Shown here: positions 10,554 to 30,501 of the stretch, piece after piece
Layout: every line of letters begins with the position of its first letter
Position numbering within the stretch: position 1 is the first letter of the stretch
From: a bacterium
GTDB taxonomy: Bacteria; Bdellovibrionota; FAC87; UBA2466
Direction of reading: 5' to 3'
DNA: 55,393 nt
Assembly (NCBI GenBank): GCA_009927045.1
Contig: RFNT01000117.1
Span: forward strand, 1 to 55,393
Notes under the pieces: model-generated
Databases searched by the model: none
The model's input: the letters and a program-made list of their open reading frames with translations, nothing else
What the model was told of the DNA's origin: nothing
Program-made: the position numbers and the translations under genes

Positions 10554-10937
10554 TTATGCACTTTCTTCTGATAATTCTTGAACCTTTTGAAGAAACTCAT
10601 CCAGATCGATGGGCTTCTTTAGGATCACCGTATTTCCTTGCGCAATCGGCATTCTCTTTTCGGAGGTTGCACTGATGATTAAGGTGGGTAAGTCTTTGAA
10701 TTGATCTGAGTTATTTTTTTTATCAAGGAATTGCCACCCGTCCATAATGGGCATCATCAGGTCGAGGACGAGAACTGAAGGGCGGCTTTTCATGTGTACC
10801 AATAACTCCCAAGCTTCTTTACCGTTGCAAGCGGTATCCACATCATACCCCTCCAAACTTAAAGCCACTTTGAGTAGTTCTCGGATATCGGTATCGTCCT
10901 CAATCACTAAGAGTTTTTTTGATTTCTCGCTTCGCAT
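10554..10937 (-). CDS. Single-domain response regulator (CheY-like receiver)
   Basis: 127 residues, receiver domain only, no output domain. Acidic pocket EDD at 13-15, phosphoacceptor Asp59 in VLVLDLMMP, a Thr/Ser in IISATSE and the conserved Lys in ILKKPID. It would be a phosphorylation relay or a protein-interaction switch. It is divergent from the phosphoacceptor-only protein at 11152 and separated by about 210 bases that contain no other clear gene, so a shared regulatory region is likely. The partner kinase is not identified; the hybrid-free kinase at 23777 is a candidate only by proximity. Confidence 0.9.
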   Translation of the reverse strand: MRSEKSKKLLVIEDDTDIRELLKVALSLEGYDVDTACNGKEAWELLVHMKSRPSVLVLDLMMPIMDGWQFLDKKNNSDQFKDLPTLIISATSEKRMPIAQGNTVILKKPIDLDEFLQKVQELSEESA

Positions 10938-11151
10938 CTGTGGGTCTCAAAATAGCTCGCGTCTTGTTTTAGTAAAGCGAATTCCAAATTCTTTTTTTAA
11001 AGTGCGCTGGTTGCAAAATGAAAGATGGCCTTTCAGTTTGCAAGATCTCAAACAACGAAATGATCGGTTCTGCTGCTCTGAGGTTGGGCACGGCTTGTGC
11101 ACATCTGACTCCAGAACAAAAAAAACAACACTGCAGGGGGATTCTTTCGAG

Positions 11152-11382
11152 ATGACATCACCACATAAAAAAGACAAGCCAGTATGCCTCAATATTCTTT
11201 CGCACACGCTTAAAACACCCCTCACCAGTCTGAAGCTTGAGCTTCAACTCGCGCTGAGAAGACTGAGTGGGCAGGAAAAGCTTTCAGAGTCAGAGCATCA
11301 GTTAAAGGACTCGTTAGAGTTCTCACTTGAAAGAACCAATATTATGATCCAAATGATTTGTCTCGTTTTAGGGGAGGCCTGA
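11152..11382 (+). CDS. Phosphoacceptor (HisKA/DHp)-only protein
   Basis: 76 residues from the ATG at 11152, which has AGGGGG about 12 bases upstream. The sequence is essentially a HisKA dimerisation/phosphotransfer domain: H-box LSHTLKTPLTSLKLELQ with His18, then a second helix. It closely resembles the H-box region of the full kinase at 23777 (SHELKTPITALKLQLQ). There is no ATP-binding domain and no sensor, and the stop is followed after one base by the ATG of the NtrC-type gene, so the pair is co-translated. It may be a phosphorelay shuttle or the remnant of a kinase. The frame also extends further upstream without homology. Confidence 0.6.
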   Translation: MTSPHKKDKPVCLNILSHTLKTPLTSLKLELQLALRRLSGQEKLSESEHQLKDSLEFSLERTNIMIQMICLVLGEA

Positions 11383-11383
11383 T

Positions 11384-12784
11384 ATGCAAGTATTCATTAT
11401 CGATGACGAACCGGAAATTTCCCGCTCTATGGCACATATTATTGCACCCTTCAAGCTCCAGACGAGCTGTTTCAATCATACAGCGACTGTTTTATCAGCA
11501 ATGAAAGAGACCCCCCCTGATTTGGTCTTCTTGGATTACCGCCTAGGAAGTGAAAGTGGCCTGGCACTCATTCCACTCATTCTCCAAGAAAATCCTTCTG
11601 CCTATATCGTCATGATGACTGCTTTTGCTAGTTTTGAAGTCGCTCTTGAGGCCATGAAGTTAGGAGCTAAAGATTTTCTTAAAAAGCCGTTTTCGCTGGA
11701 GGAAGTAGAAATCATTGTGAAACGCTTCACCGAGCTTTCAAATCTGAAAAATCGTCTCAAGAATTTAGAAGAGGAATACGGGACGGATCAAATTCTTCTG
11801 GAATCGAAAAACCCGAAAGTGAAGGAACTGTTGAGGTTGGCAAAAAAGGCGGCTCAAAGTCAATCGGTAGTGCTCATCACCGGGGAAAGTGGTTCTGGTA
11901 AGACAGAGCTGGCGAAGGCCATCCACAGTTGGTCTTGCCGCCAACAGTTTCCTTTTGCGACCGTAGCCTGCCCTACATTAAGTGCTGACTTACTTGAGAG
12001 TGAACTGTTTGGACACGTCAAAGGGGCCTTTACAGGTGCAGTAGCCCACCATCAAGGACGTATTGCCAAGTGTGAGGGCGGAACGCTTTTTTTAGATGAA
12101 ATTGGAACCTTGCCACTCAGCCTGCAACCCAAACTGCTTAGATTCTTACAGGATTTTTCTTACGAACGGGTAGGAGATACCACAACTCATAAAGCAGACG
12201 TGCGTATTATTGCAGCGACGAATGCGGATTTGGCAAGTTTAGTCAGACAGGGAGTTTTTCGAGAGGACTTATTCTATCGGTTGAATGTGATTGAGCTCCA
12301 TTTACCGCCCTTGAGGGAGCGACCGGAGGACATCGAAGCGCTTTCACAGATTATTTTGCTCAAATTGTGCAAGAAACATGGGCGAGCCCCGATTCGCCTT
12401 ACTCAAACTGAACTGAGATCGCTTTCACAGCACCCGTGGCGTGGAAATATTCGGGAGCTCCATAACACTCTGGAGCGGGCCTTGATTTTTTCAAATGAAG
12501 GCGAGCCACTGCAAATTCATTATCAACCTTCTCTTCTCCCCACACAAAGCGCTCCCACAATTCAGGTTGGAGGTCCTCATACACTAGAAGAAGTTGAAAA
12601 GGCTCACATTGAAGCAACTCTCGCAAGGTTGGATAGCATCGAGGAGGTTTCACAAGCGTTAGGGATCAATCCCTCAACCCTCTGGCGAAAAAGAAAGACC
12701 TATGAAGAGCAAGCTAGATCCGTATTTCCTGGTGATGACTCCAAGGTGGGCACTCCCTCATCAGATCCGGGGACCATGCATTAA
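11384..12784 (+). CDS. NtrC-family sigma54-dependent response regulator
   Basis: 466 residues in three domains. Receiver (1-120) with Asp51 in VFLDYRLG. AAA+ domain (about 140-370) with Walker A GESGSGKT, the sigma54-contact loop GAFTGA, Walker B GTLFLDEIG and the arginine-finger segment LPPLRERPEDI. C-terminal Fis-type helix-turn-helix with VSQALGINPSTLWRKRK. It activates promoters read by sigma54 RNA polymerase when phosphorylated. The start has GGGGAGG upstream and follows the phosphoacceptor-only gene by one base. Its 3' end overlaps the convergent wecB by 71 bases. Targets unknown. Confidence 0.95.
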   Translation: MQVFIIDDEPEISRSMAHIIAPFKLQTSCFNHTATVLSAMKETPPDLVFLDYRLGSESGLALIPLILQENPSAYIVMMTAFASFEVALEAMKLGAKDFLKKPFSLEEVEIIVKRFTELSNLKNRLKNLEEEYGTDQILLESKNPKVKELLRLAKKAAQSQSVVLITGESGSGKTELAKAIHSWSCRQQFPFATVACPTLSADLLESELFGHVKGAFTGAVAHHQGRIAKCEGGTLFLDEIGTLPLSLQPKLLRFLQDFSYERVGDTTTHKADVRIIAATNADLASLVRQGVFREDLFYRLNVIELHLPPLRERPEDIEALSQIILLKLCKKHGRAPIRLTQTELRSLSQHPWRGNIRELHNTLERALIFSNEGEPLQIHYQPSLLPTQSAPTIQVGGPHTLEEVEKAHIEATLARLDSIEEVSQALGINPSTLWRKRKTYEEQARSVFPGDDSKVGTPSSDPGTMH

Positions 12785-13898
12785 CTGCATGCCACCAATA
12801 TTTCAGTACTGTGGCAATTCCCTCGGCTGCGTGACCATCCCCAAATGGGCTATTTCCTGTCCAAAACGGTTTTGAAGTGAATTCTCCTCGAAGAACAGCA
12901 TTTTGAAATTGAGAAATAATAGAATCCGCTTGAGTTCCCACTCGAGAGGCAAAGGGTGTTTCGAGTGCCTCTGGTCGTTCCGTATCTTCTCTCAGAACAA
13001 ACGTCCGAATTCCCAGTGAGGGCGCTTCTTCTTGTAAGCCACCGGAATCTGTCATCACGCAAGAGGCGTTTCGGAGGAGATACACCAGTTCACTGTAATC
13101 CAGGGGCGGAATAAGACTCACCCCCGCTTCCCCTTCTAGATTCTGATGCGCACTTTGAGAGACTAAAGGATTCGGGTGCACTGGGATCACAAATCGATAG
13201 TCCTTAAAATTCCGGGCTAAATATCGAATCGCCTGAAAAACACGGTCATGCGCCTCGCCAAAATTTTCCCGACGATGGGCTGTGACTAACACCAGTTTTT
13301 TGCCATTGAATAAAGGATCCAAGTGGGGAAACGATCGGTTTTTGAACCATTCCAACCTTAGTGCATCGATACTGGTATTCCCCGTAATGAAAGTGAACTT
13401 CTCCTCCACGCCTTCTCGCATCAGGTTTTTTCTGGAGCGTTCTGTGGGACAAAAGTGGAGATCGGCAAGGCATGAAAGCATTTTCCGATTCATTTCTTCC
13501 GGAAAAGGTGAAAAGTTTTTTCTAGTTCGCAGCCCTGCTTCGATATGGCCAATCGGAACCTTATGAAAAAAGGAGACCCAGGCTGCAACTACGGCAGAGA
13601 CGGTATCTCCCTGGACTAAGAGCAAATCCGGATTAAAATCCTGAAAAACATACGGTAATGCTCGCATGCATTCAGCAGAAATTGCTGAAAGGCTCTGGTT
13701 GGGCTGCATCAGGCCCAAATCCCAATCGGACTCCATTTCCAGATTTCTCAAGAGCTGATCCAACAAATCTCGATGTTGACCCGTCACACACACTTTTAGC
13801 TCAATCGAGTCCTCCTTTTTAAGAACGCGATAAAGAGGCGCTAGTTTGATGGCCTCGGGACGGGTACCCATCACCATCAGTACTCGAGCAGTGCGCAT
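12714..13898 (-). CDS. wecB: UDP-N-acetylglucosamine 2-epimerase (non-hydrolysing)
   Basis: 394 residues. Converts UDP-GlcNAc to UDP-ManNAc. Motifs: MVMGTRPEAIKLAPL at the N-terminus, VCVTGQHRDLLDQ, VQGDTVSAVVAAW, HIEAGLRT, FPEEMNRK, TAHRRENFG, VHPNP and MTDSGGLQEEAPSLG, including the Asp, Glu and His positions of the family. The ATG at 13898 has GAGGAGA upstream and lies two bases after the preceding stop; longer upstream starts would overlap that gene. It is the last gene of the exopolysaccharide operon and supplies the ManNAc donor that the NfrB-type synthase of E. coli is known to need. The C-terminus is about 20 residues longer than usual. Confidence 0.93.
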   Translation of the reverse strand: MRTARVLMVMGTRPEAIKLAPLYRVLKKEDSIELKVCVTGQHRDLLDQLLRNLEMESDWDLGLMQPNQSLSAISAECMRALPYVFQDFNPDLLLVQGDTVSAVVAAWVSFFHKVPIGHIEAGLRTRKNFSPFPEEMNRKMLSCLADLHFCPTERSRKNLMREGVEEKFTFITGNTSIDALRLEWFKNRSFPHLDPLFNGKKLVLVTAHRRENFGEAHDRVFQAIRYLARNFKDYRFVIPVHPNPLVSQSAHQNLEGEAGVSLIPPLDYSELVYLLRNASCVMTDSGGLQEEAPSLGIRTFVLREDTERPEALETPFASRVGTQADSIISQFQNAVLRGEFTSKPFWTGNSPFGDGHAAEGIATVLKYWWHAVNAWSPDLMRECPPWSHHQEIRI

Positions 13899-13900
13899 TT

Positions 13901-15184
13901 TTAATTCTCCTCGATAAAATAATGTTTCACGACTGCTTCGGTTTGAGGTTTTCCAATGAAGCTGAATCCGGTGTCCAGTGGTCCGTGCAAATGAGGATCT
14001 ATTGAAAGATCCCAAAATACCACCCCCCGAAACCATTCCCACTTGGGTTTCCAAAAGGATTGAAGAAGCGCTTCATAGGCAGCTGCTTGATCCGAGATAT
14101 TGATAGGTCCCCTGTCCTCCCCGACATACCGGAACGGATTCACATAGCCTTTCGTCACACTTCTGAAGCCGACTTCCTTCAAAATAGCAACTTGTGGCTC
14201 CCCCACGACTGCTTCTATCTCAAAGAGCGCATTATCCAACTGAGAAGCATACCGATCCGATGCCTGTTTGAGGTCTTCAATGAGGTCACTCAGCCGCTCG
14301 GGCTTTTTTTGGTCTTCGGTGGCAAGCGATCGATACATATCGATGCCAATAGCATCGAGCCCCTTCCAGAATTCGACCAAGTTTTTCCAAACTTCTTTTT
14401 CTTTAGGATCAGTCCGATTGGCTAAATCTACGATCCGGTAGCGCCATCGAGCGAGTTCACCTCCAAACTCATCGATTCCCGACTCAGCGGCGATGATCTT
14501 GTCATCAGTGAAGTTGATGTCATACATAATCCTTGTCGTCGGGGGAAGCTTCGTACGGGCATAGGCCAGGAGCTTAACCCACTGAGCGGGGAATCCATGG
14601 GGGTACTCTTTCCACTGATCTTCAATGCCTACGGTCATTGAGTATAATTCAGCTCCGAGCGTAAACTCTTCAACTTTTGTCTGAGCTGAAAGTAAAAGAT
14701 AGATATCCAAATAGGTTTTAAAAGACTCAAACCAGGCATTTGGATTCACTGGCTGAATATTTCCATGCCACCACTCCTTTTTAGTTCCATCCGGTAGCAC
14801 TTCCACAAAAGGTGTCCGTCCATTGGAATCGACCACAAAAAAGATAGGACGCATCCCGACTGTCATTTCCTTGCCATGAATATACTGTATCAGCCGGGTG
14901 AGTCGTTTTCGTTCGTCGGATCGATTTTCTGGAGGAGTCATCGGCTTTAATTCGGAGTTTTTTGGATGCGTCATGATCGCTCTAGGAGTCAACACCAGGT
15001 GCCTCACTCCAGCCTGAAAGGCCCTATCCACCATTTCTTGAGCTGCTGTTTTACTCCCACCGTCGGCAGAAGCATCGAAAATATACCCATCTGCCTCTGT
15101 GAGGGTGGCACCCTTCACGAGGGGTATGTCCAGTGCGAATCCGATTGCGTGCACACCCAGGATGAAAAATAACATTGCTTTCAT
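13901..15184 (-). CDS. Secreted glycoside hydrolase, GH113-like TIM barrel
   Basis: 427 residues with a short signal peptide (MKAMLFFILGVHAIGFA). TIM-barrel glycosidase resembling GH113 beta-mannanases. The likely acid/base Glu is in FTLGAELYSMT and the nucleophile in VAILKEVGFRS; the family-typical ending is seen as RGVVFWDL followed by DTGFSFIGKP. Acting in the periplasm, it would hydrolyse the polymer made by the operon's synthase, as hydrolase domains do in Pga, Pel and cellulose systems. A family acting on beta-mannosidic links fits a ManNAc-type product. Substrate is inference. It lies three bases after the upstream gene and two before wecB. Confidence 0.8.
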   Translation of the reverse strand: MKAMLFFILGVHAIGFALDIPLVKGATLTEADGYIFDASADGGSKTAAQEMVDRAFQAGVRHLVLTPRAIMTHPKNSELKPMTPPENRSDERKRLTRLIQYIHGKEMTVGMRPIFFVVDSNGRTPFVEVLPDGTKKEWWHGNIQPVNPNAWFESFKTYLDIYLLLSAQTKVEEFTLGAELYSMTVGIEDQWKEYPHGFPAQWVKLLAYARTKLPPTTRIMYDINFTDDKIIAAESGIDEFGGELARWRYRIVDLANRTDPKEKEVWKNLVEFWKGLDAIGIDMYRSLATEDQKKPERLSDLIEDLKQASDRYASQLDNALFEIEAVVGEPQVAILKEVGFRSVTKGYVNPFRYVGEDRGPINISDQAAAYEALLQSFWKPKWEWFRGVVFWDLSIDPHLHGPLDTGFSFIGKPQTEAVVKHYFIEEN

Positions 15185-15187
15185 AGT

Positions 15188-16942
15188 TTACCTCTCTTGT
15201 TCTGAAAAAAGATTGACTGCGTAGATTGCTCCATAAACACTTTGAATGTACTGACCCTCAAACCGCTTCCCGGAATCAAAGAATTCTCCGCGAACATGCA
15301 CCCAACGTTGGCTCTCAAACATCCCTGAACTTAAATAGGCAACATTTCTCTTGGGATCGTAATAGCCATATTCCAGGTCCACACTCACTGGAATACTTTC
15401 TTTATAGGTAACTAATAGAGTCCCCTGCAGTCGCTGAGCCGTTTGGTAAATGACCAACCGAAATTTTACGTCTCGGCTTTCGCCGAGATAAACTCCGCTG
15501 ATATCGGAAATGGATGTGCGGTTTTCATCTGTAAAGGCAAGATAGGAACGTGTTTTTTTTCCTTCAATTGGCGAAGTAAGCTTTGAAGTAAAGAAGGTTC
15601 CCTGAATCCGCTTTTCCCCCGCTTCTGTGGTAATTACAAATCTCATAAAGAATACTTCGTTCACGGGATTAGAAAAGTTCGGGTCGGTCACTTCATAATG
15701 GACGGCCTCCCATTTTTTTTGTTTGCTATTGTAGAGCACATGAAAAAAGCTGAAATCAGCGGACACTTCTCCCCCGTATCGCACTGAAAGGCCCATAAAG
15801 AACTTACCGTTCCCGATGTGCACTAGATTGATCAAACCGGGTTTATCTCGTACCGTCACCTCATAAGAGCCCTCAATTTCCTCAGTCAGGCCAGCAACCA
15901 GCAAAGAAATTCGGCTAACAAACTTCTTCATTTCCTCAGCTGGTTGATTGAGGCCTAGCTTTTGATACTCCTCCATTAATCGATCAGATATTTCCCCAAG
16001 TAACATCAACTGAGATTCTGGAATCGGCTTATCTCGATACAGGGTGATTATAAAACTTCCTAGTTCGGTTATTTGGCTGGATAAAAGCGCTGGGATCAGC
16101 TCTTTGGCCAACGCAATATCAAAAACGTTTTCCTGCGTGAGAATCTTAGAGACAATCGTGATGATCAAATAACCGGGTGCCGTCAGCACATTAAATGGGA
16201 TGGTTTGATTCAGCGTTTTTAGGTTAGTCGATAAAACAATTCCCCATTGGAGAAAGGTTTCAAGTTCAGTGTGTTGGGTCGCTCTCAACACTTCTTCACT
16301 GAGAAATCCCACAATGGCTTGAATCGCCGTCATTGAGCGAACGCTCTTCATGATTCCTAACATTTGATCGGAGCTGATTTCATTTTTTATTTTGATCAGA
16401 CGCTGTACACTGCTCGCCTGTAATTGCTCAAATGCCTCCACGACATAGGCCTCACTTTTGAGATCGATGATTGCCGCCAAGCTAAAGCATGCCCGCTCAT
16501 ACCAATGGAGCAATCCCTCTCGGTCGGTTACGAGGACCAGTAATTTCAAGTGTTGGCCCGCAATCTGATAGCGCGTTGAGTTTTCACTCCAACTAAAAAA
16601 GTGACTTATGAATTCTGTGGGTTCCTGATCCAATCGAAGCCACTTGATGCCTTGCCGTGTGAGGACCCAGCCCAGTTTTTTCACAACCTGATTGGATATT
16701 TCATCCACACCATGGCTGACAGCAATCTTTTCCAACTCATTCAAAATTTGGATATAGGGAAAAAGTTGCTCTTTCGCGGTGAATGTTGGGGCAAATCGTT
16801 CAATATCTTGCACCACGACCAAAAAATCAGGCCGCCCTATTTTTGCCTTTTCCAGAAGGGCTTGGGGTGATGCAAGTTCATCACTGAACAAAGGAAGTGA
16901 AAGAATGGCTGCCGCTAGTGTAAGGACTTTCAAACTCTTCAT
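15188..16942 (-). CDS. Secreted protein of unknown function in exopolysaccharide operon
   Basis: 584 residues from the ATG at 16942, which overlaps the stop of the previous gene (ATGA). A signal peptide (MKSLKVLTLAAAILSLPLFS) is followed by a helix-rich region to about residue 360 and a beta-rich C-terminal half with repeated strand patterns (SGVYLGESRDVKFRLVI; VRGEFFDSGKRFEGQY). I do not recognise a family. Position inside a tightly coupled six-gene operon points to a role in export, anchoring or modification of the polymer. It could replace the TPR scaffold that large NfrA proteins carry, but that is speculation. Confidence 0.75.
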   Translation of the reverse strand: MKSLKVLTLAAAILSLPLFSDELASPQALLEKAKIGRPDFLVVVQDIERFAPTFTAKEQLFPYIQILNELEKIAVSHGVDEISNQVVKKLGWVLTRQGIKWLRLDQEPTEFISHFFSWSENSTRYQIAGQHLKLLVLVTDREGLLHWYERACFSLAAIIDLKSEAYVVEAFEQLQASSVQRLIKIKNEISSDQMLGIMKSVRSMTAIQAIVGFLSEEVLRATQHTELETFLQWGIVLSTNLKTLNQTIPFNVLTAPGYLIITIVSKILTQENVFDIALAKELIPALLSSQITELGSFIITLYRDKPIPESQLMLLGEISDRLMEEYQKLGLNQPAEEMKKFVSRISLLVAGLTEEIEGSYEVTVRDKPGLINLVHIGNGKFFMGLSVRYGGEVSADFSFFHVLYNSKQKKWEAVHYEVTDPNFSNPVNEVFFMRFVITTEAGEKRIQGTFFTSKLTSPIEGKKTRSYLAFTDENRTSISDISGVYLGESRDVKFRLVIYQTAQRLQGTLLVTYKESIPVSVDLEYGYYDPKRNVAYLSSGMFESQRWVHVRGEFFDSGKRFEGQYIQSVYGAIYAVNLFSEQER

Positions 16943-18732
16943 GGCAGACTCCCTTCGATGGGCGGCAGGCGCAGAAGAGCCGGCGCTTGAGCAGTCCATT
17001 CTTCCATATTGATAAATCGATACCCCAATCGCTGAATTCCTTGAATGAGATCAACGATGTGTCTTCCATCTCCTGGATAGTCACCCAGCCCCTCCTCTTG
17101 GTTAGGCAAGACCAGAACTGGGTGGACAAACAACGAGGCCCAGTGATCCCTCAGAACACGATTCCTTCGAGCGGAATCCAACATTTGCGTTGGATTTTGT
17201 GTCATATAGACCTGTTCATTCAGAAACGGCTGAATATTTCCTAAGTTCTCTGGAAGGAGTCGTTGGCCATACACATCTCCCCAGATTTCGTATGGAAACA
17301 TCTGCCCACTGGGTAGGAGATTTTCAGGGTAGCTCACACGGAGATCATTCAAGTATCGCCACCGTTGAGCAGCACCCGCAGCACCCGCAGCACCCGCTTG
17401 ATTATATGTTAAGCTGAGCGGAAGGCGCTGTGCTTGCTCTGCTTGGAACGGGAAGTACGTTACCCGCCCGATTCCCCAAGCAAATAGTTGGCCGAAGAGA
17501 ATAAAGTCCAAGGGTGAAGCCTGGTAATGAGGGGTTAACCAAACAGAAGGCAGAACTCCCGCCTTTTCAAAGAGGGTTTGGCCATCTGTTAAACGATTTA
17601 CTACATAGGAAATGGAATCTTCCGGAATGGGCCGATTGTTGACACCATCCCAAAATTCAAAATCATCCCCTGACATGCCATTAAATGGATTTTTTTGCTT
17701 TCCATATTGGTGAGTGACCCCATGAAAAATAATACTGCCTCCCGACTTTTTTGAGTCATTCAGAAACTCAAGAAAGAATGGCCTTTGAAGTAGCGTTACC
17801 ATACTTTCTGCTGGATCATCGACTCTGGATAGAAGAGGGTCTGAAAAGATAGGGATCACCGAGATTCCGAATGGGATTCCACATTTTTCAAAGGTTGTTT
17901 TATAGGCGTTGAGTTGCCACAGCGGGAGATTTGGATGAATGTCTTCAAAGCGTACAATTGCGGGTCGTTCCTGGGGGTAGAGCGGAGGTTCCTGCAGCAA
18001 ATCAAAAAGCAGATCCGTAAGAATGAGATATCGGTCCTTTTCATGCATAAAAGAAAAGGGACTATCTGCAATGAAAAACCTGTTTTTATTTACAATCACA
18101 TATGGGGCTCTTTGCCCAGTGCTAGAATGTTCAGCCCAAGCAAGCACATGGCTTTCTGTTGAGTCCGCCTGTTCTACTTTCAACAAAACCATCTCAAAGG
18201 CGGCTTTGAATTGATCCGGATGTTTTCGATCAAATTCCCCATATTTTTCGAATCGTTCCCCTTTGTATTCAAAATTTTTGAAAAATCCGGGTTTGCCCTT
18301 CGGGTCTTTTTGATCCCAATCGAGTTTTGACAGTCCTTGATAGGATACATTCCACAATCCAAGCAAAACCTCGGGAGCTAGCTTCCAAATGTGATAGCCC
18401 ATCCAAAGCACTTGCTTTTGAGTGGCCACAAAGTCTGACAAGAATGCTGGGGGAATACTGGAATTGAAGTGCGTGCCCAAGTAGACCAGCGCTTCACACT
18501 TTTCAACTTGCCCTGCGCGGTACTTATGAATAGGAAACACAATCTGCTGCCAACGAGGGAAATGCCCGAGCAGGTTTTGAAGAAAGAGAGCATGGATTCT
18601 TCCAATCGGGACACCCCCGCTCTGACCATCCACTTCATCATAAACGATTTGAATGCAAGGGGTTGGATTGAGTCCGTAACTCACTTGAGAAGTCAGCATA
18701 ACCATCCCGAAAATGAACGCCACTTTCATCAT
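16939..18732 (-). CDS. Secreted polysaccharide deacetylase-like protein (DUF2334)
   Basis: 597 residues with signal peptide (MMKVAFIFGMVMLTSQVSYG). The DUF2334 deacetylase-like domain occupies roughly residues 260-560: the metal-site Asp is in AIVRFEDIHP and the His motif in IIFHGVTHQYG. The N-terminal part resembles a Rossmann-like accessory region (ALVYLGTHFNSSIPPAF). It probably removes acetyl groups from the nascent N-acetylhexosamine chain, the role of the PgaB N-terminal domain. The ATG pair at 18732/18729 overlaps the stop of the synthase. A (GAA)3 tripeptide run is encoded by a 9-base tandem repeat. Deacetylase activity of this family is little tested. Confidence 0.8.
   Translation of the reverse strand: MMKVAFIFGMVMLTSQVSYGLNPTPCIQIVYDEVDGQSGGVPIGRIHALFLQNLLGHFPRWQQIVFPIHKYRAGQVEKCEALVYLGTHFNSSIPPAFLSDFVATQKQVLWMGYHIWKLAPEVLLGLWNVSYQGLSKLDWDQKDPKGKPGFFKNFEYKGERFEKYGEFDRKHPDQFKAAFEMVLLKVEQADSTESHVLAWAEHSSTGQRAPYVIVNKNRFFIADSPFSFMHEKDRYLILTDLLFDLLQEPPLYPQERPAIVRFEDIHPNLPLWQLNAYKTTFEKCGIPFGISVIPIFSDPLLSRVDDPAESMVTLLQRPFFLEFLNDSKKSGGSIIFHGVTHQYGKQKNPFNGMSGDDFEFWDGVNNRPIPEDSISYVVNRLTDGQTLFEKAGVLPSVWLTPHYQASPLDFILFGQLFAWGIGRVTYFPFQAEQAQRLPLSLTYNQAGAAGAAGAAQRWRYLNDLRVSYPENLLPSGQMFPYEIWGDVYGQRLLPENLGNIQPFLNEQVYMTQNPTQMLDSARRNRVLRDHWASLFVHPVLVLPNQEEGLGDYPGDGRHIVDLIQGIQRLGYRFINMEEWTAQAPALLRLPPIEGSLP
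17369..17397. repeat. 9-base tandem repeat, three copies
   Basis: GCAGCACCC occurs three times in a row (17369-17395), in frame within the DUF2334 gene and encoding Gly-Ala-Ala repeats on the minus strand. Copy-number change would alter a surface loop without breaking the frame. Confidence 0.8.
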
Positions 18733-20090
18733 AGACTCACCCGAGATGGTGCCATTGCAGTCCCAAAGTTTTTAGGCAGTTCATGCTGGGTTTTTACCCA
18801 GAGGGAGGGCTTCTGCATCCACTGACTCATCCAGTAGTTTTTCAGTGCGCGAAAGCTTGCAAGACCATTCACCCAGACCGAAATGGGATACCTAAGAATC
18901 ACCCAAAGAGCCTGGCGACGTCCATATATCTTTGCTGCCGAAGTGGCACGGTGAAAGAGCCGATTGAGAATCACCAGGATATTACAAAAAAGTAGCGCCT
19001 TCAGAGCCCGTGGGTTGGGGGCCAAGTCAATGACCCCCAACAAAAGCGTCGGCAAGAGCAGGAATCCGCAAAATCCAGCACTGTTTCCCAGGAGAGCTTT
19101 TCTGTCTCTGAGCAGGAAGATTCGATTGGTCAAATTCCCAAACCAACCTAAGTGTGTTGGAGATTGGAGTGTAATCCCCTCAGTCCATCTCGCCTTTTGA
19201 CGAACAGCCATTCCTACCGAATTGGGAAAAAACTCACGGGTAGCTACCCAATTTTTTTCACCAGAACGTTCCTGGTAAAAATGGCACGCAAACACCTGGC
19301 GCAGGCCCAGACTAAAAGCTCTGATACCGAGTAAGTAATCCTCCGTTAAACACTGGGACTCGAGTAGCTTTCCTCCCGTGGCTTGAACCATTTTTTCCAA
19401 AGCAGCACGGGTGATTGCCATTCCGACCCCAGCAGATGGCACGGACGCACAAAGCCGATTCCGACACAAAAGTTCTCGGGTATGCGCTTCTGCAAATTCA
19501 TCCATATAAGACGCACCTACAGAAAATGAGCGAGGAACCTGCAGCGAAAAGACAGGAAGCTGAATGAAGTCGTAGTCATTAGAATATTTATTGATCAAAG
19601 CCAAAGAGCGGGGATGGATGATGTCTTCGGCATCCTGAAACACAAAAATATCAAAAAGAGACTTGGTTTCCTTTCGCAGTTGATCCACCATTTCATTGAG
19701 TAAATGGCCTTTGGAGGTCGGACCCGGAATAGAACTCAGCAGTATCCGGATTTGGGGGTTCTGCAGCTGTGCTTGGGTGACTGCTTGTAAAGTGGGCCAG
19801 TCATTCGGATAACATCCCACAAATATTTGATAGTTTTTGTAGTGAATGTGCTGGCTATTCCCCAACAGCATTTGGGTAATAACACTCTCCTCACGCCATG
19901 TTGGGATGAGAATAGCGATTTTCCGTTCTGGTTGCGCTTGTATTTCAAACCAGTCTTTTTGTGTGAGAGCCTGAGGGCGTATTTTGTGCCAGAAAATGAG
20001 ATAATCAATCCAGAGGCTGTCTAAATTCCAGACCAAGTAAACCAGTGACAAACTGATGAAGGCCCATTGAAATCCAGTAAGCTCAGTCAT
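18729..20090 (-). CDS. NfrB-like processive glycosyltransferase, lacking the c-di-GMP-binding C-terminus
   Basis: 453-residue GT2 membrane synthase. It matches the NfrB (N4 glycan receptor) family along its whole length: IPTWREESVI, FVGCYPNDWPT, PGPTSKGHLLNEM, FQDAEDIIHP (the DxD-type site), YMDEFAEAHTRELL, VPSAGVGMAITRAAL, CLTEDYLLGIRA and the QxxRW-type motif AVRQKARWTEGI, then LLRDRKALLGN. Helices flank the catalytic domain. E. coli NfrB polymerises ManNAc and has a C-terminal MshEN-type c-di-GMP receptor of about 270 residues; this protein stops at KTQHELP, just before that part. ATGA overlaps join it to both neighbours. Function is a confident family inference; product identity is less sure. 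Confidence 0.88.
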   Translation of the reverse strand: MTELTGFQWAFISLSLVYLVWNLDSLWIDYLIFWHKIRPQALTQKDWFEIQAQPERKIAILIPTWREESVITQMLLGNSQHIHYKNYQIFVGCYPNDWPTLQAVTQAQLQNPQIRILLSSIPGPTSKGHLLNEMVDQLRKETKSLFDIFVFQDAEDIIHPRSLALINKYSNDYDFIQLPVFSLQVPRSFSVGASYMDEFAEAHTRELLCRNRLCASVPSAGVGMAITRAALEKMVQATGGKLLESQCLTEDYLLGIRAFSLGLRQVFACHFYQERSGEKNWVATREFFPNSVGMAVRQKARWTEGITLQSPTHLGWFGNLTNRIFLLRDRKALLGNSAGFCGFLLLPTLLLGVIDLAPNPRALKALLFCNILVILNRLFHRATSAAKIYGRRQALWVILRYPISVWVNGLASFRALKNYWMSQWMQKPSLWVKTQHELPKNFGTAMAPSRVSL

Positions 20091-20782
20091 AGAAATCCCC
20101 CCACTGTTGCAAGCAGACGGAATCCTTCAAAACCCGAATCTTGGAACGAAATCACATGAGCAGCTGAGACAGCAGCACAAAAACTCTGTTCACACACCCT
20201 CAAGCGAACACTGGGGCGAATTCCCGATTGGATATTAGATGGGCCGCCTCCTTGCCAGAGCGACCAAAATGGCTCGAGATAGAGATCCGTAGACCCATTT
20301 GCAAGCATCTGAACTTGGATGCCCACACGAGAGAGCGCCTGAACACCCCAAAAGGCGTCTTCCTCTACCGCCATCAACACTTCGGAATAGGGCTCCAAAA
20401 AAACTGCCCAAAGGGATTGGGGTGCTAATTTCCAACTTAAAGTGTCGCCGAAGGCCGTTAAAAAGCGCCATTGGGATTTTGTCTTCATGCGATGTTCAGC
20501 AAAACACCTGAGATGTGGCACGCTCCAGGAAACTCCGGGTGCAAAGTAAGGCTCCCAATTTCCTGTGGGACCCACCGACATTTCTGCCCCCGCTTGAAGA
20601 AAGGGTTGAACACTTTGTTCGGGAAATAATGACATTCGTGCAAACGTACCGGAGTGAAATGGCTGAACTTGAGCCTCCAGAACACCTTCGCTATAAAACT
20701 CGGTTCTCACTGCAGCAGCGCTTCCCTCTATTTGATAGATCGCTAGAAACCCAAGGAGTATTTTTTTTACGTGGTTTGCCAT
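20087..20782 (-). CDS. NfrA C-terminal-domain-like outer membrane protein
   Basis: About 231 residues. A likely signal peptide (MANHVKKILLGFLAIYQIEG, cleavage after the SAAA) precedes a beta-strand-rich body with alternating aromatic residues and a final strand ending LLATVGGFL, all typical of a small outer-membrane barrel. It resembles the C-terminal barrel of NfrA/YaiO-type proteins but lacks the large TPR part of E. coli NfrA. It is the first gene of the exopolysaccharide operon and overlaps the synthase start by four bases. The start is uncertain: ATG at 20782 or TTG at 20800, neither with a strong ribosome site. Confidence 0.65.
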   Translation of the reverse strand: MANHVKKILLGFLAIYQIEGSAAAVRTEFYSEGVLEAQVQPFHSGTFARMSLFPEQSVQPFLQAGAEMSVGPTGNWEPYFAPGVSWSVPHLRCFAEHRMKTKSQWRFLTAFGDTLSWKLAPQSLWAVFLEPYSEVLMAVEEDAFWGVQALSRVGIQVQMLANGSTDLYLEPFWSLWQGGGPSNIQSGIRPSVRLRVCEQSFCAAVSAAHVISFQDSGFEGFRLLATVGGFL

Positions 20783-20940
20783 CAAAAGAAGAGAGTGCAA
20801 CCCCTATGCCTGAGGGGATTGCGCCGCAAGTGCTGAGACAAAACTGCTTTTTGCAACTTCTCCATTTCATGTCGCGATCCGGAACAGGATCAACTGAGCC
20901 CAGCACCCCTCTGGTATGTGGGTTGCACGTTGTCCCCCAC

Positions 20941-21483
20941 ATGGCTCGACGAAAAAAAACTCGAAGTGGGGCAGAAATTCGAAGCCTAGTAGGTGCCAAA
21001 AGATTTCAGGAACCCATCTGGTGGCTCGCTGTTCTACACAAAAATCAGGTCCAAATTTTTTCCTTCTCACCCATTGAGCATCAACTCTGCCCATTATGGA
21101 AACGAGAAGAAAAAGACTTTCACGACCTCATCGCTCGTCGGTTGCGAGGGTCTGCCGGACGAACTCAAGAGAGTTTTTCCTGGAGTGCAGGAGGTCATCA
21201 AACAGGACATCGCCGCCACAGTTATTCCTCGGCTACACCCCCCAAAAAAAGAGCCTCTCAAACTTTACTAGCGGCAGGAGCGCATTTTGTGAAACAGGAA
21301 TATAGAAAGCGAAAATTTGATCATCTCGCTCTCGTCGCTAACCCTGCTGTTTACGGAACCTTCAAAGAACTCTTAGGCGCCCGTTTAGCTAAAAAAGTCA
21401 CTTTACATGCTCCAGCACTTCCCAATTACTTAAGTTCCCGTCAGCAGGAAAAGCAGTTGCTTTCCTTGATGGCAACCGAATGA
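20941..21483 (+). CDS. Host-attachment/BaeRF-family protein
   Basis: About 180 residues from the ATG at 20941. Resembles the 'protein required for attachment to host cells' family, related to archaeal release-factor eRF1 domains: WWLAVLHKNQVQIFSF at the start, GSAGRTQES in the middle and the ending FDHLALVANPAVYGTFKELL with a final ...KKVTLHAPALPNYL. Cellular role is poorly known; members cluster with stress and ribosome-rescue genes. Here it is followed by DUF2267 and ftsH. An upstream extension of the frame to 20515 would overlap the NfrA-like gene on the other strand, so I reject it. No clear ribosome site supports the start. Confidence 0.65.
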   Translation: MARRKKTRSGAEIRSLVGAKRFQEPIWWLAVLHKNQVQIFSFSPIEHQLCPLWKREEKDFHDLIARRLRGSAGRTQESFSWSAGGHQTGHRRHSYSSATPPKKRASQTLLAAGAHFVKQEYRKRKFDHLALVANPAVYGTFKELLGARLAKKVTLHAPALPNYLSSRQQEKQLLSLMATE

Positions 21484-21496
21484 GAAAGGACACTCC

Positions 21497-21934
21497 ATGA
21501 CGAGTCTCGAATCCAATCTAGAAAAATCCTATATCTGGCTCAATTTTCTCCAAGCCGAACTCAACATGCCCAAGAAAACTGATGCCTATAAGCTGCTTAA
21601 AGTAGTCTTGCACGAATTGAGAGATCGCCTTCCGGTGAACGAAGCCGCACAACTCGGAGCACAACTCCCCATGCTCATTCGTGGGCTCTATTATGAGGGG
21701 TTTCGACCCAAAGAGGTGAGCCGTAAAGACAAGAGCTTAGATCCTTTTCTTAAAGCCGTTGAAAAGAAAATGCCTCGTTTTTATCCGAAGCCCCCCAGCG
21801 AACTGCTTCGAGGGGTGTTTTCACTGCTCAATGAGTACGTAAGTCCTGGTGAAATTCAAGATGTGAAATCTTGCTTCAGCCAAGAAGTTCGGGATTTTTG
21901 GCCAGTGCCTTCAAAAAAGAAAAAAGCTGCTTAA
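21497..21934 (+). CDS. DUF2267 protein
   Basis: 145 residues, all alpha, matching DUF2267: IWLNFLQAELNMPKKTDAYKLLKVVLHELRDRLP, then EAAQLGAQLPMLIRGLYYEGF and a second helical half ending in a Lys-rich tail. Function unknown; in many genomes it accompanies BaeRF-type and stress genes. The ribosome site AAAGGA precedes the ATG. Its stop directly abuts the ftsH start (TAAATG), so the two are translationally coupled. Confidence 0.85.
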   Translation: MTSLESNLEKSYIWLNFLQAELNMPKKTDAYKLLKVVLHELRDRLPVNEAAQLGAQLPMLIRGLYYEGFRPKEVSRKDKSLDPFLKAVEKKMPRFYPKPPSELLRGVFSLLNEYVSPGEIQDVKSCFSQEVRDFWPVPSKKKKAA

Positions 21935-23768
21935 ATGAAAAAACCCCAGCATCTCAAGAGTCCAATCCCCTTTTTTTTGGTGATTTTCGGCATCTTTCTT
22001 TTTTTAAATGTGTGGGTTAGCAAACAAGTCACTACTGCTATCCCCTACAGCGAGTTCCTCACACACGTTCAAACAGGAAAATTGAAGCAAGTGAGGATTT
22101 CCAAAGACACCCTGCTGGGAGAACGACTTGAGCCGGACTCTTCAGGCAAACGACTCTTCACCACCCAACGAGTTGACGATCCGAGTTTGATAGGCTTACT
22201 GCGAGAAAAAAATATCAGCTTCACTGCAGAGCCAGAAATGGGGGTCTGGATGAAAATCCTGCTTTGGTCGATCCCACTCGTTCTTTTGATTCGATTCGGT
22301 AGCCTCCTCTTCCGTCAAGGATTGGGAGATTCCCGCAGGGGCATTTTGGGCCTCACTCGGTCACGAGCAAAGCTTTTTGTAGAAAAAGGATATCACGACA
22401 ACATTTGAGGATGTAGCCGGCGTGACCGAAGCAAAAGAAGAGTTGAGAGAAATCGTACAGTTCTTGGCAGATCCTCGACAGTTCACTCGGTTGGGTGGCC
22501 GAGCGCCCAAAGGCGTTTTGTTAGTCGGTCCTCCTGGGACGGGAAAAACCCTTTTAGCCCGAGCGATTGCGGGAGAAGCTAAAGTCCCTTTTCTTTCTAT
22601 CAATGGCTCGGAATTTATTGAAATGTTTGTGGGCCTCGGAGCCGCCCGAGTTCGTGATTTATTCCAACAAGCTCGCGACCTGGCCCCTTGTATCTTATTT
22701 ATTGATGAAATTGATGCCGTAGGAAAAGTGCGCGCGGGAGCAATCCTGACTGGCGGCAATGAAGAAAAGGAACAAACCCTGGGACAACTCCTTGCAGAGA
22801 TGGATGGCTTTGATAGTTCTAAGGGCGTAATTATTTTGGCAGCTACCAACCGTCCTGAAATTTTAGACCCAGCCCTTTTAAGAGCTGGCCGTTTTGATCG
22901 CCAAGTACTTATTGATAATCCCGATCAGCGAGGCCGACTGCAGATCTTGCAAGTCCACTGCAAAAACATTAAAGCAGATCCCCAGCTTTCGCTTGAGCAT
23001 ATTGCTTCCCTCACTCCTGGATTTTCTGGTGCTGACTTGGCGAATTTGGTCAATGAAGCAGCTCTCTTTGCTGTTAGACGCAACGGGGATTTGGTCACGG
23101 AAAGTGATTTCGACCATGCCATTGAGCGGATAGTTGCTGGATTAGAGCAACGCTCAAAAATTATGCATCCGGAAGAAAAGCGACGGATTGCTTTCCACGA
23201 AATGGGACACGCAACCGTTTCCCTCACTCTCGGACCTTCTGAGAAAGTCCATAAAGTCAGTATTGTCCCTCGGGGACTCGGGGCCTTGGGCTATACTATC
23301 CGCCGCCCCACAGAAGACCGATACTTGATGGACGAGCATGAAATGCTCAAAAAAATTGCAGTTCTTTTAGGTGGACGTGCGGCCGAGGTTCTTTTTCTAA
23401 AATCAACGTCCACTGGCGCAGCAGATGACTTAGTCAAAGCAACCGATCTCGCTCGAGCGATGGTCACTCGATTTGGGATGAGTGAAGCCATCGGGCTCAG
23501 TGTTCTTGAAGAAAAAGAACTAACTTATTTAGCCTCCCCACAGCTTCCTCGAATTTCCCCCTACAGTGAAGAAACCGCAAAAAGTATCGATCACGAAGTC
23601 AAAAGTATTTTAGAAAAGGGATTACGTTTAGCTTTGAAAGAACTCAATACCTATAGAACCTTCATTGAACAGGGAGCTCTCGAGCTGATTCGAAAAGAAA
23701 CGTTAGAGGAAGAAGATGTAGTTCAGTTGTGGGATCAGCACGTTCAATCTGCAAAAGTCAGTGCATAA
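21935..23768 (+). CDS. ftsH: ATP-dependent zinc metalloprotease FtsH, frameshifted as sequenced
   Basis: Membrane AAA+ protease of about 610 residues. Two transmembrane helices flank a periplasmic part (residues 15-125). The AAA domain has Walker A GPPGTGKT, Walker [13 protein letters not shown] and the arginine-finger region; the peptidase has HEMGH (zinc site) and the later Asp in [15 protein letters not shown]. The frame breaks near 22388, ahead of the AAA domain: KLFVEK continues in the other frame as [20 protein letters not shown]. Removing one A from the A5 run at GTAGAAAAAGG restores it. Probably an indel error. It could be a second, stress-linked FtsH, given its DUF2267/BaeRF neighbours and a C-terminus shorter than usual. 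Confidence 0.88.
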
Positions 23769-27433: not shown

Positions 27434-30400
27434 ATGTCACTCTCTGAAATTTCTATCAAAAGACCCGTTTTCGCATGGATGTTGATGGCTTCGCTCATTG
27501 TATTTGGAGGCATCTCATTCAATCGCATGGGGATGAGTTTACTGCCCGATGTCGACTTTCCCGTCATTTCTGTCGGACTCAGCCTTTTGGGGGCGGCTCC
27601 GGAAGTGATGGAAACGGATGTCGTGGATGTGGTCGAAAATTCCTTGAGCACCATTCAAGGGGTCCAGCTCATCTCTTCTACCTCACGCAAAGGCTCCGCC
27701 AATGTCACGATTCAATTGGATTTAGATAGAGACGTCGATTTAGCCATGCAAGATGTTCAGGCTAAAATTTCTGAATCCATGAGAAAGCTCCCCAAAGAGC
27801 TGGATGCACCTACCATCTCAAAAACAAACCCGGATGATGCTCCTATCATGTGGCTGACAGTTGAAAGCGAGAATCATCCGTTGCGAGAGCTCATGCAATA
27901 TACTCGCGACCACTTGCAACAACATTTTGCGACCACTCCGGATGTAGGAGATATCAATTTCGGGGGCTATGTCGATCCCAATTTGAGGGTCTGGGTATCC
28001 GCGCAAGAACTCGCACGATATCAACTCACTGTGATGGATGTGATCACGACCATTCAAAATGAACATAGCGAAGTCCCCGGAGGCTGGATTGAAGAAGGTG
28101 GTAAGGAATACACCATTCGCACGATGGGGGAAGCCACTTCGGTCAGTGAGTTTGAGAAGCTTCCCATCATCACTCGGGGTGGTGCACCTAACTTCATGCC
28201 TATCCCTTTGGGCAAAGTCGCCAAGATAGAACAAGGCCTGGCAGATATTCGCAGGATCAGTCGAGGACGCGGAAAACCTGCAGTTGGCCTCGGGATTCGC
28301 AAACAACGGGGTGCGAATGCTGTGAAAGTAGCTCAAGATGTTCGAAGAAAAATTGCTCAGTTAGAGAAAAAGCTTCCTGAGGGCATGAAGCTTTCTATCA
28401 ATTTTGATAGCACTCAATTCATTGAAGAAGCTGTTCACGAGCTGAACTTCACCTGGTTCTTTCAGCCTTACTGACTGCTTTAGTGTGCTGGGTGTTTTTA
28501 GGATCCTGGTCCTCAACTGTTAACGTTTTGCTCTCCATCCCCACTTCAGTCGTTGGAACATTCATTGTTCTCTACTTCTCTGGGTTTACACTCAATACAT
28601 TCACACTTTTGGGACTGAGTTTAGCGATAGGGATCGTAGTGGATGATGCCATCATGGTTCTTGAGAACATCATTCGCTATCGTGAAAAGGGTCTGGCCAA
28701 AGAAGAAGCAGCCCTAGTCGGTTCAAAAGAAATTACGTTTGCAGCATTAGCAGCAACGCTTTCGATTGTAGCTATTTTTCTCCCGGTAGCCTTCATGAAA
28801 GGCGTGATTGGTAAATTCTTTTTCCAGTTTGGCGTCACTATGACAGTTGCTGTACTTTTATCGCTCTTAGAGGCACTCACTCTCACCCCCATGCGATGTG
28901 CGCAGTTTTTGGAAGCAGGCGAGCGAAGCACTCGGCTCGGGAAGCTCTTTGAATCGTCCTTGGGTGCCCTGAGAGCTTTTTACGAGCGCACTCTCCAAAA
29001 AGTGATTCAGCAGCCCTGGACGACTTGTGGAGTTTCCATTCTGTTTTTCCTTCTCAGTTTAGTTTCTATTAAGTTTCTTAAGAAAGAATTTTCGCCTGCG
29101 CAAGACCAAGGGCGCTTCATGATTCGAGCACAAACTCCTATTGGATCCAATATCGCTTTTACTGATGCCAAATTTAAAGAGGTAGAAACTTACTTAGAAA
29201 AAAGAGCTGACATTGAACGCTACTATGTAGCAGTCGGTGGCTTCGGAGGAACCGACGTCAATGCGGGTATTATTTTTATTACCATGAAACCGCAGGGACA
29301 ACGGGGGATCGATCCTCAGCTCAAGCGAGAGCCAACTCAGCAGGATCTGATGAATCTGGTTCGAACGGATCTGAATCAAATCACAGACCTAAAAGTGACA
29401 GTCCAGGATCTTTCCATGCGCGGTTTTGGTTCCGGCAGAGGGTTTCCATTTGAAGTGAGTATTCAAGGGGCAGACTGGAAGCAACTTGGTGAGCTTTCTA
29501 AACGGCTTATCGATGAAATGAATCAGTCGGGGTTAGTGACGGATTTAGATTCCGATTATTTAGTTGGAATGCCCGAACTCCAAGTGATTCCTAACCGGGA
29601 AAAGGCCTCGCAACATGGTGTGAGTTTGGCAGCTATTGGGCAAACTGTAAGTGCGCTCATGGGTGGCATTATTGTAGGCCAATACAGTGAAGGTGGGCAT
29701 CGGGATGATATCCGACTAAAAATATTAGATGAGGGAGGAACACGCCTAGAACGATTGAATCGTTTGAAGATTCGAAATAACAGGGGAGAATTGATTCCGT
29801 TGTCCTTTGTAGTGAATATCGATGAGAGCCCCAGCCTTTTGAGTATTGCAAGACGTAACCGGCAGCGAGCCGTTTCTGTTTACGGAAATATCGCATCGGG
29901 AAAATCCCAACAGGAAGCGATTGAAGTAGCCGTTCAAAAAGCTAAAACTTTTTTTCCAGATGGATACATTTTAGAAGCTACTGGGAGCTCTGAAGATTTG
30001 AAGAAGACGTTTCAGGGACTTATTTTTGCTTTAGTACTTGGGCTTGTGGTGGCTTACATGATCTTAGCTTCTCAATTCAATAGTTATGTGGATCCCTTAA
30101 GTGTCTTGATTGCCCTCCCCTTCAGTATTTCTGGAGCTCTGTTAGCTCTGTTAATCACTGGGCAATCACTCAACATGTACAGCATGATTGGGATTGTGCT
30201 GCTCATGGGCATCGTCAAAAAGAATTCGATTCTCTTGGTAGACTTCACGAATCAAGTCCGCGCTGAGAAGAAAACCGATCTCCGCTCTGCACTGCTTGAA
30301 GCGTGTCCTATCCGGTTGCGGCCCATCCTGATGACTTCCATTGCTACGATTGCTGGAGCTATCCCCCCTGCCCTGGCCTTGGGCCCAGGAGCAGAGAGCC

Positions 30401-30501
30401 GGGTGCCGATGGCTATTACGGTGATTGGGGGCGTTTTAGTTTCTACCCTCCTGACTCTGTATGTGGTTCCCTGCGTAGTTCAGCTATTGAAGAGGAATTG
30501 A
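27434..30501 (+). CDS. RND multidrug-type efflux transporter (HAE-1 family), frameshifted as sequenced
   Basis: About 1,020 residues, full AcrB-type length. Helix 4 has the proton-relay Asp pair in AIGIVVDDAIMVLENII and helix 10 the conserved Lys in GIVKKNSILLVDF; the porter and docking domains lie between. The frame breaks near 28457: HELNFT should continue LVLSALLTALVCWVF. Adding one C (ACCTGG to ACCCTGG) restores it, consistent with an indel error. No periplasmic adaptor (AcrA-type) gene lies between or beside tolC and this gene, so the adaptor must be elsewhere or the only nearby HlyD protein may serve. The gene ends overlapping fhs. Confidence 0.85.

Follow-up and report, generated by a model that had tools for sequence, protein, structure and literature searches.

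The gene cluster analysed here probably encodes an Nfr-like exopolysaccharide secretion system in which a natively short synthase has no receptor for cyclic di-GMP (c-di-GMP) and in which, at the level of one genus, expression would be controlled by sigma54 and an NtrC-type regulator. It is located on contig RFNT01000117.1 of assembly GCA_009927045.1, from a member of the Bdellovibrionota (FAC87; UBA2466), and was studied in a stretch of 55,393 nucleotides (nt), referred to below as the window. The reading is built on the domain content of the proteins, a cluster conserved in the phylum, the lack of truncation and conserved sequence elements.

The synthase is a membrane-bound, probably processive family-2 glycosyltransferase (GT2) and, judging from its sequence, a likely builder of an external sugar polymer. 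Its residues 2-443 align with residues 10-482 of Escherichia coli K-12 NfrB (NC_000913) with 31% identity (BLASTP, E = 5e-69). The similarity extends through the KTxHxxP motif, found as KTQHELP at residues 433-439, after which 14 amino acids (aa) remain, in agreement with an earlier note on this DNA that had placed the end of the protein there. E. coli NfrB, by contrast, goes on for 263 aa past the aligned part and has its MshEN domain within this extension, to which the synthase has no counterpart. The signatures DAED, TED and QKARW at residues 153, 249 and 298 supply the GT2 core with DxD, TED and QxxRW that is required of NfrB (NF008411). A Pfam search (E<=1) matched two GT2 models to the synthase, one of them Glyco_tranf_2_3 (E = 9.7e-39), and nothing beyond them. 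Neither MshEN nor PilZ was found in this search, which covers the profile check of the C-terminus proposed in the earlier note, and the PilZ domain of BcsA-type cellulose synthases is likewise missing. The same library detected MshEN in E. coli NfrB (residues 542-628, E = 3.8e-14) and in the long forms of Thalassospira and Burkholderia. Against NF008411, the equivalog model of the c-di-GMP-activated glycosyltransferase NfrB, the synthase scores 287 bits, below the cut-off of 1170. A search of PDB sequences gave no match at E<=1.

By comparison with its relatives, the short synthase is the normal form of this bacterial group and not a broken copy. It was found in 57 of the 368 genomes of the same phylum that were searched; 53 near-full-length rows, from 50 genomes, were obtained in this way, the other nine being fragmentary or weakly matching. 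These 53 homologues have open frames of 444-557 aa, with one exception of 855 aa (G338), and all are without MshEN. Leaving the window aside, 52 near-full-length rows remain, and neighbourhoods were taken for 49; in one of these 49 (L067) the synthase was not picked up by the calling of open reading frames (ORFs), leaving 48 relatives. In 45 of these the protein ends 4-36 aa past KTxHxxP. The motif is missing in two (L081 and L092), and G338 runs 367 aa further. The catalytic motifs TED and QxxRW are present in 49 of 49 sequences and D[AS]ED in 48 of 49. The 855-aa protein was considered as a long form and rejected, as its synthase part ends at KTDHRFP and is followed by a secreted segment without MshEN; because of this and the signal-like beginning of the extension, it looks like a synthase fused to an exported protein.

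An insertion or deletion that recently cut a longer NfrB, or an assembly error to the same effect, was also weighed. Two other genes of the window are split (at about 22400 and about 28475), showing that such events do happen in this assembly or genome. However, the homology to the window synthase has a common end point in E. coli NfrB and the phylum relatives, and the stop codon of the synthase and the start of the following gene overlap by 4 nt, leaving no room for an NfrB remnant. The same 4-nt overlap occurs in 29 of the 46 relatives in which the following gene is on the same strand. A relaxed form of the published MshEN pattern was missing from all six frames of 12701-20900; this is a blunt test, because the pattern missed two Pfam-positive proteins, the Burkholderia NfrB and a stand-alone MshEN protein. 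Truncation or frameshift of a longer synthase is ruled out by the phylum-wide short form together with the stop/start overlap, and there is hardly any doubt left on this point. The longer gene in other strains that the earlier note had suggested looking for was not seen, none of the 53 homologues having MshEN.

On the minus strand the genes follow one another in the order small barrel-like protein, synthase, DUF2334 protein, secreted protein, GH113-like protein and WecB (Table 1). The DUF2334 protein is presumably polysaccharide-deacetylase-like. In some members of the phylum it is 840-1000 aa long (L063, 4086-7031; L035, 4271-7234), and the extra N-terminal part weakly matches the GH113 model. 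The make-up of the cluster, with WecB, a deacetylase-like and a hydrolase-like protein, suggests a polymer of N-acetylmannosamine (ManNAc) that is modified on export. The linkage of a WecB-type epimerase to the synthase is as the Nfr system requires; this WecB is not the sole one, because Epimerase_2 is matched at two more places in the genome, three in all.

Table 1. Features of the synthase locus in the window
Feature	Position	Strand	Evidence and remarks
NfrB-type GT2 synthase, short form without MshEN, 453 aa, ATG start	18729..20090	-	Pfam, NCBIfam, BLASTP, motifs
Small barrel-like exported protein, candidate outer-membrane pore	20087..20782	-	overlaps synthase start by 4 nt; no Pfam match
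DUF2334 protein	16939..18732	-	Pfam E 6.2e-37; 4-nt overlap of its start with the synthase stop
Secreted protein, 603-aa ORF	15188..16942	-	N-terminal signal-like segment; no family match
GH113-like glycoside hydrolase, exported	13901..15184	-	Pfam E 2.4e-16
WecB, UDP-N-acetylglucosamine 2-epimerase (non-hydrolysing), expected source of UDP-ManNAc	12714..13901	-	TIGR00236 376 bits, cut-off 210
sigma54-type -24/-12 element (predicted), AGGCAT-N5-TTGCA (20811-20796)	20783..20811	-	14 nt before ATG 20782; also in L027 and L028, same spacing
Second, divergent sigma54-type element (predicted), TGGTAT-N5-TTGCA	20912..20940	+	14 nt before ATG 20941 of Host_attach-like gene; also in L027
NtrC-type response regulator (receiver, sigma54-activator AAA+, Fis-type helix-turn-helix), convergent neighbour	11384..12784	+	Pfam

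Among the 48 phylum loci in which the synthase was called, the barrel-like family occurs in 43, DUF2334 in 38, WecB in 30, GH113 in 26 and the secreted protein in 12. When loci shorter than 19 kb are set aside, 26 remain, and the corresponding numbers are 26, 23, 18, 14 and 8. The family models were refined by iteration on the very loci counted here and many stretches end at contig ends, so that these are neighbourhood counts rather than strict orthology. In 34 of the 48 loci a barrel-like homologue lies immediately upstream of the synthase and in the same orientation.

Compared with the NfrBA-YbcH system of E. coli, the N4 glycan receptor system, the cluster shares the GT2-membrane unit through KTxHxxP, its WecB linkage mirrors the WecB dependence there, and an outer-membrane barrel partner is plausible. 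It differs in lacking MshEN, in having a small barrel-like protein instead of an NfrA with tetratricopeptide repeats (TPR), and in having the GH113-like protein in the place of DUF4434/YbcH. The DUF2334 protein, the secreted 603-aa protein and the NtrC-type neighbour are additional. No Pfam match to the NfrA-type TPR or to the NfrA_C barrel was found in the cluster proteins. Profile comparisons showed no relation of the secreted protein to the TPR part or the barrel of NfrA, nor of the GH113-like protein to DUF4434 (4.8%). Single-sequence structure predictions were of too low confidence to be usable: the model of the secreted protein, with a helical N-terminal and a beta C-terminal part, has a mean pLDDT (predicted local distance difference test) of 37.8, and that of the barrel-like protein 37.1. 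The stretches modelled for these two proteins began one residue before and one residue after the likely start methionine.

In this genus, transcription appears to be the best-supported level of control, the sequence elements lending it partial support. The core of the sigma54 promoter has the consensus GGYA-N6-TTGCW. Exactly two matches to it are present in the window; they point in opposite directions, and both lie in the interval that separates the cluster from the divergent Host_attach-like gene. L027, of the same genus, has exactly two matches in the same two places, and L028, also of this genus, has one, before the cluster. In all five cases (three before the cluster, two before the divergent gene) TTGC is followed after exactly 14 nt by the start codon, and the rest of this intergenic sequence aligns poorly. 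The predicted element has the GG-N10-GC core with TTGC; a gene for RpoN, the sigma54 factor, is present in the genome, and an enhancer-binding protein is encoded nearby. In L027, the one relative with enough flank, the NtrC-type gene is found in the same place with 70% identity. Over the whole genome, GGCA-N6-TTGCW occurs at 58 sites, compared with 20 for the reversed control. A genome-wide 14-nt rule was considered and rejected, a start codon lying at exactly this distance in 2 of 57 other sites. If transcription started 12 nt downstream of the -12 element, the mRNA would have almost no leader.

The divergent operon (20912-23768) comprises a Host_attach/baeRF-like gene (ATG 20941), a 145-aa gene and an FtsH-like gene. 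Because its own sigma54-type element has the same 14-nt spacing and is common to L027, both operons may be co-controlled. On the other side of the cluster, an ORF at 10747-11382 ends 1 nt before the NtrC-type gene and encodes only a HisKA (phosphoacceptor) part (weak match, E = 2.3e-5), without an ATPase domain; no such frame was seen at the same place in L027.

The earlier note had offered transcription through the NtrC-type neighbour as one possible mode of regulation. This holds within the genus, where the element is present in three of three members and the NtrC-type gene is kept in L027, but not beyond it. Near the cluster the element is missing in 45 of 46 other phylum loci, and outside the genus the NtrC-type regulator is not adjacent. 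As a phylum-wide answer sigma54 control was thus rejected, and it applies to the genus only.

Apart from this narrow distribution, several observations weigh against the interpretation as a whole. By chance alone 2.04 matches to GGYA-N6-TTGCW would be expected in the window, and 2 were counted; the evidence therefore consists in the placement and repetition of the elements. The profile of the barrel-like protein matches the C-terminal barrel of NfrA weakly, at 70.9% probability, so that the link between the two is weak. The roles given to the DUF2334 and GH113-like proteins follow from their family names. The genome contains c-di-GMP machinery, with 4 GGDEF, 4 PilZ and 3 MshEN matches. Finally, the late addition of MshEN discussed below is limited by midpoint rooting and by thin sampling outside the phylum.

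With such machinery present, c-di-GMP might still act on the synthase in trans, through a PilZ protein or a stand-alone MshEN protein encoded elsewhere. In-trans c-di-GMP adaptors exist for other GT2 systems, and among the four PilZ and three MshEN matches of the genome there is one MshEN in a 227-aa protein without the ATPase part. Its gene, however, is on another contig (L037, 1573-2256, minus strand) with no cluster gene linked to it, and none of the MshEN, PilZ and GGDEF matches of the genome is linked to the cluster. No pattern match to the published 24-residue c-di-GMP motif was found in this protein, though the pattern also misses the true Burkholderia MshEN. Action in trans is thus unlikely. 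Within the cluster, MshEN, PilZ, GGDEF and EAL were not found in any of the six proteins (Pfam, E<=1). This includes the five besides the synthase, among which a receptor domain would have overturned the claim of the earlier note. The note had also named the secreted 603-aa protein as a possible partner; as a receptor this protein is a weak candidate, because c-di-GMP is cytoplasmic and the protein, which matches no family, begins with a signal-like segment. As a separate observation, a likely diguanylate cyclase, which begins like a receiver and contains a GGDEF domain, is encoded on the same contig (49513-50877), 30 kb from the synthase.

The synthase itself could bind c-di-GMP at a site that no model recognises. 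PgaC and PgaD, which bind c-di-GMP at their interface, are a parallel; a small PgaD-like membrane partner was not seen here, where no search was aimed at one. A closer precedent is BgsA of Sinorhizobium meliloti, like the window synthase a GT2 exopolysaccharide synthase without a predictable c-di-GMP domain; it binds c-di-GMP through a C-terminal tail of 139 aa, so that the missing domain is no proof of missing binding (PMC5567048). The tail of the window synthase has 14 aa and that of 45 of 48 relatives 4-36 aa, too short for a domain of this type, and such a cryptic site is quite improbable. Equally doubtful is a c-di-GMP response of the NtrC-type regulator, by which c-di-GMP would work on transcription. 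BerB of Burkholderia, a sigma54 activator acting with RpoN on exopolysaccharide output, itself binds c-di-GMP (PMC5552954); a comparable arrangement is read here from the genes, and the NtrC-type gene and the sigma54 elements are conserved. The receiver domain of the regulator (Pfam, E = 7.4e-21) nevertheless points to kinase input. Constitutive synthesis, with no regulation past ordinary expression, was another proposal of the earlier note and would agree with the lack of a receptor in every cluster protein and of a common promoter element outside the genus. In this genus, the element and its spacing have been kept amid poorly conserved sequence, and the proposal has a small chance of being right.

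Expression control of a receptor-less synthase thus remains the preferred reading for this genus, and the system might work as follows. WecB would supply uridine diphosphate ManNAc (UDP-ManNAc), from which the synthase, having no built-in c-di-GMP receptor and presumably active without c-di-GMP, would polymerise ManNAc at the inner membrane. Trimming or deacetylation of the chain may fall to the exported DUF2334 and GH113-like proteins, and the chain could leave through the outer membrane by way of the small barrel-like protein. Output would be set mainly by the amount of synthase made, the NtrC-type response regulator presumably activating the sigma54 promoter directly before the cluster and probably the divergent one too. 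Expression, not allostery, is thereby indicated as the control in one genus. The cluster also offers a natural receptor-less counterpart to NfrB, making the role of MshEN testable by comparison.

The history of the MshEN switch was followed in a maximum-likelihood tree of 64 synthase cores with midpoint rooting, in which the sequences from outside the phylum are thinly sampled, from best matches and plasmid records. All 49 phylum rows fall into a single group (support 100/98). Outside it, short sphingomonad forms branch beside the rest, forms with a long C-terminus group together, and L103, a short form from the Comamonadaceae, is attached with low support (89/67). MshEN is detected by Pfam in E. 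coli, L104, L105, L109 and L110; L106 is just under the cut-off, L108 is weak, L111 has a related GspE domain and L014 the motif only. Given its place among the long forms and the half of the published MshEN motif that it has retained, L112 (Variovorax, 562 aa) looks like a secondary truncation. The MshEN-bearing rows are nested among short Pseudomonadota rows, and under midpoint rooting the simplest reading looks like an addition of MshEN within the Pseudomonadota rather than a loss here. The statement of the earlier note that the synthase is without the receptor is correct as to the absence, and for the same reason is better read as never having had one. It is conceivable, as a tentative extension, that the phylum cluster represents an older receptor-less Nfr design with a short synthase, a small TPR-less pore, its own deacetylase and hydrolase and expression control, to which MshEN and a TPR-type NfrA were added later within the Pseudomonadota. 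If the tree reading is true, the c-di-GMP switch can be dated as a later supplement to machinery that already existed. In several Pseudomonadota clusters (L105, L110, L111, L112) a gene annotated as BcsB/cellulose synthase directly precedes the synthase gene.

A synthase of this kind is a variant and not a surprise, NfrB-like synthases without MshEN having already been counted in print. A published survey reports 1,841 NfrB homologues, mostly from gamma- and betaproteobacteria and occasionally from alpha, delta and epsilon groups, of which 1,705 have a conserved MshEN (PMC8669469). By difference 136 of the 1,841 lack it and NCBIfam has short models, so that such proteins are not new. The best-scoring of these models, PRK14716.1-3 and relatives (NF011305, NF011306 and NF011307; 442-486 positions), are also short and align over 430-434 residues. 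The synthase has the same glycosyltransferase core, an end near KTxHxxP and no receptor, but at 357.6 it scores below the curated cut-off of 409 and falls outside the equivalog. The plasmid cluster L103 of Comamonadaceae OTU4NAUVB1 similarly has WecB, a short synthase (515 aa) without MshEN and DUF2334, and differs in keeping a TPR and NfrA_C pore and DUF4434. A limited literature search found no mention of the sigma54 elements, of MshEN being absent throughout the phylum, or of a cluster that has DUF2334 and GH113 but no TPR protein. Nor did it find a paper linking DUF2334 with exopolysaccharide or Bdellovibrio with NfrB, most subscription papers lying outside the literature searched.

The two split genes of the window code for an FtsH-like protein and an efflux pump. 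The FtsH-like gene (21935-23768) is broken near 22400 into two frames of 157 and 448 aa and is a single 624-aa ORF in L027; the break may be an assembly indel or a genuine frameshift. A gene for a resistance-nodulation-division (RND) type efflux pump (27434-30501) is split into two frames near 28475, the second such break in the window.

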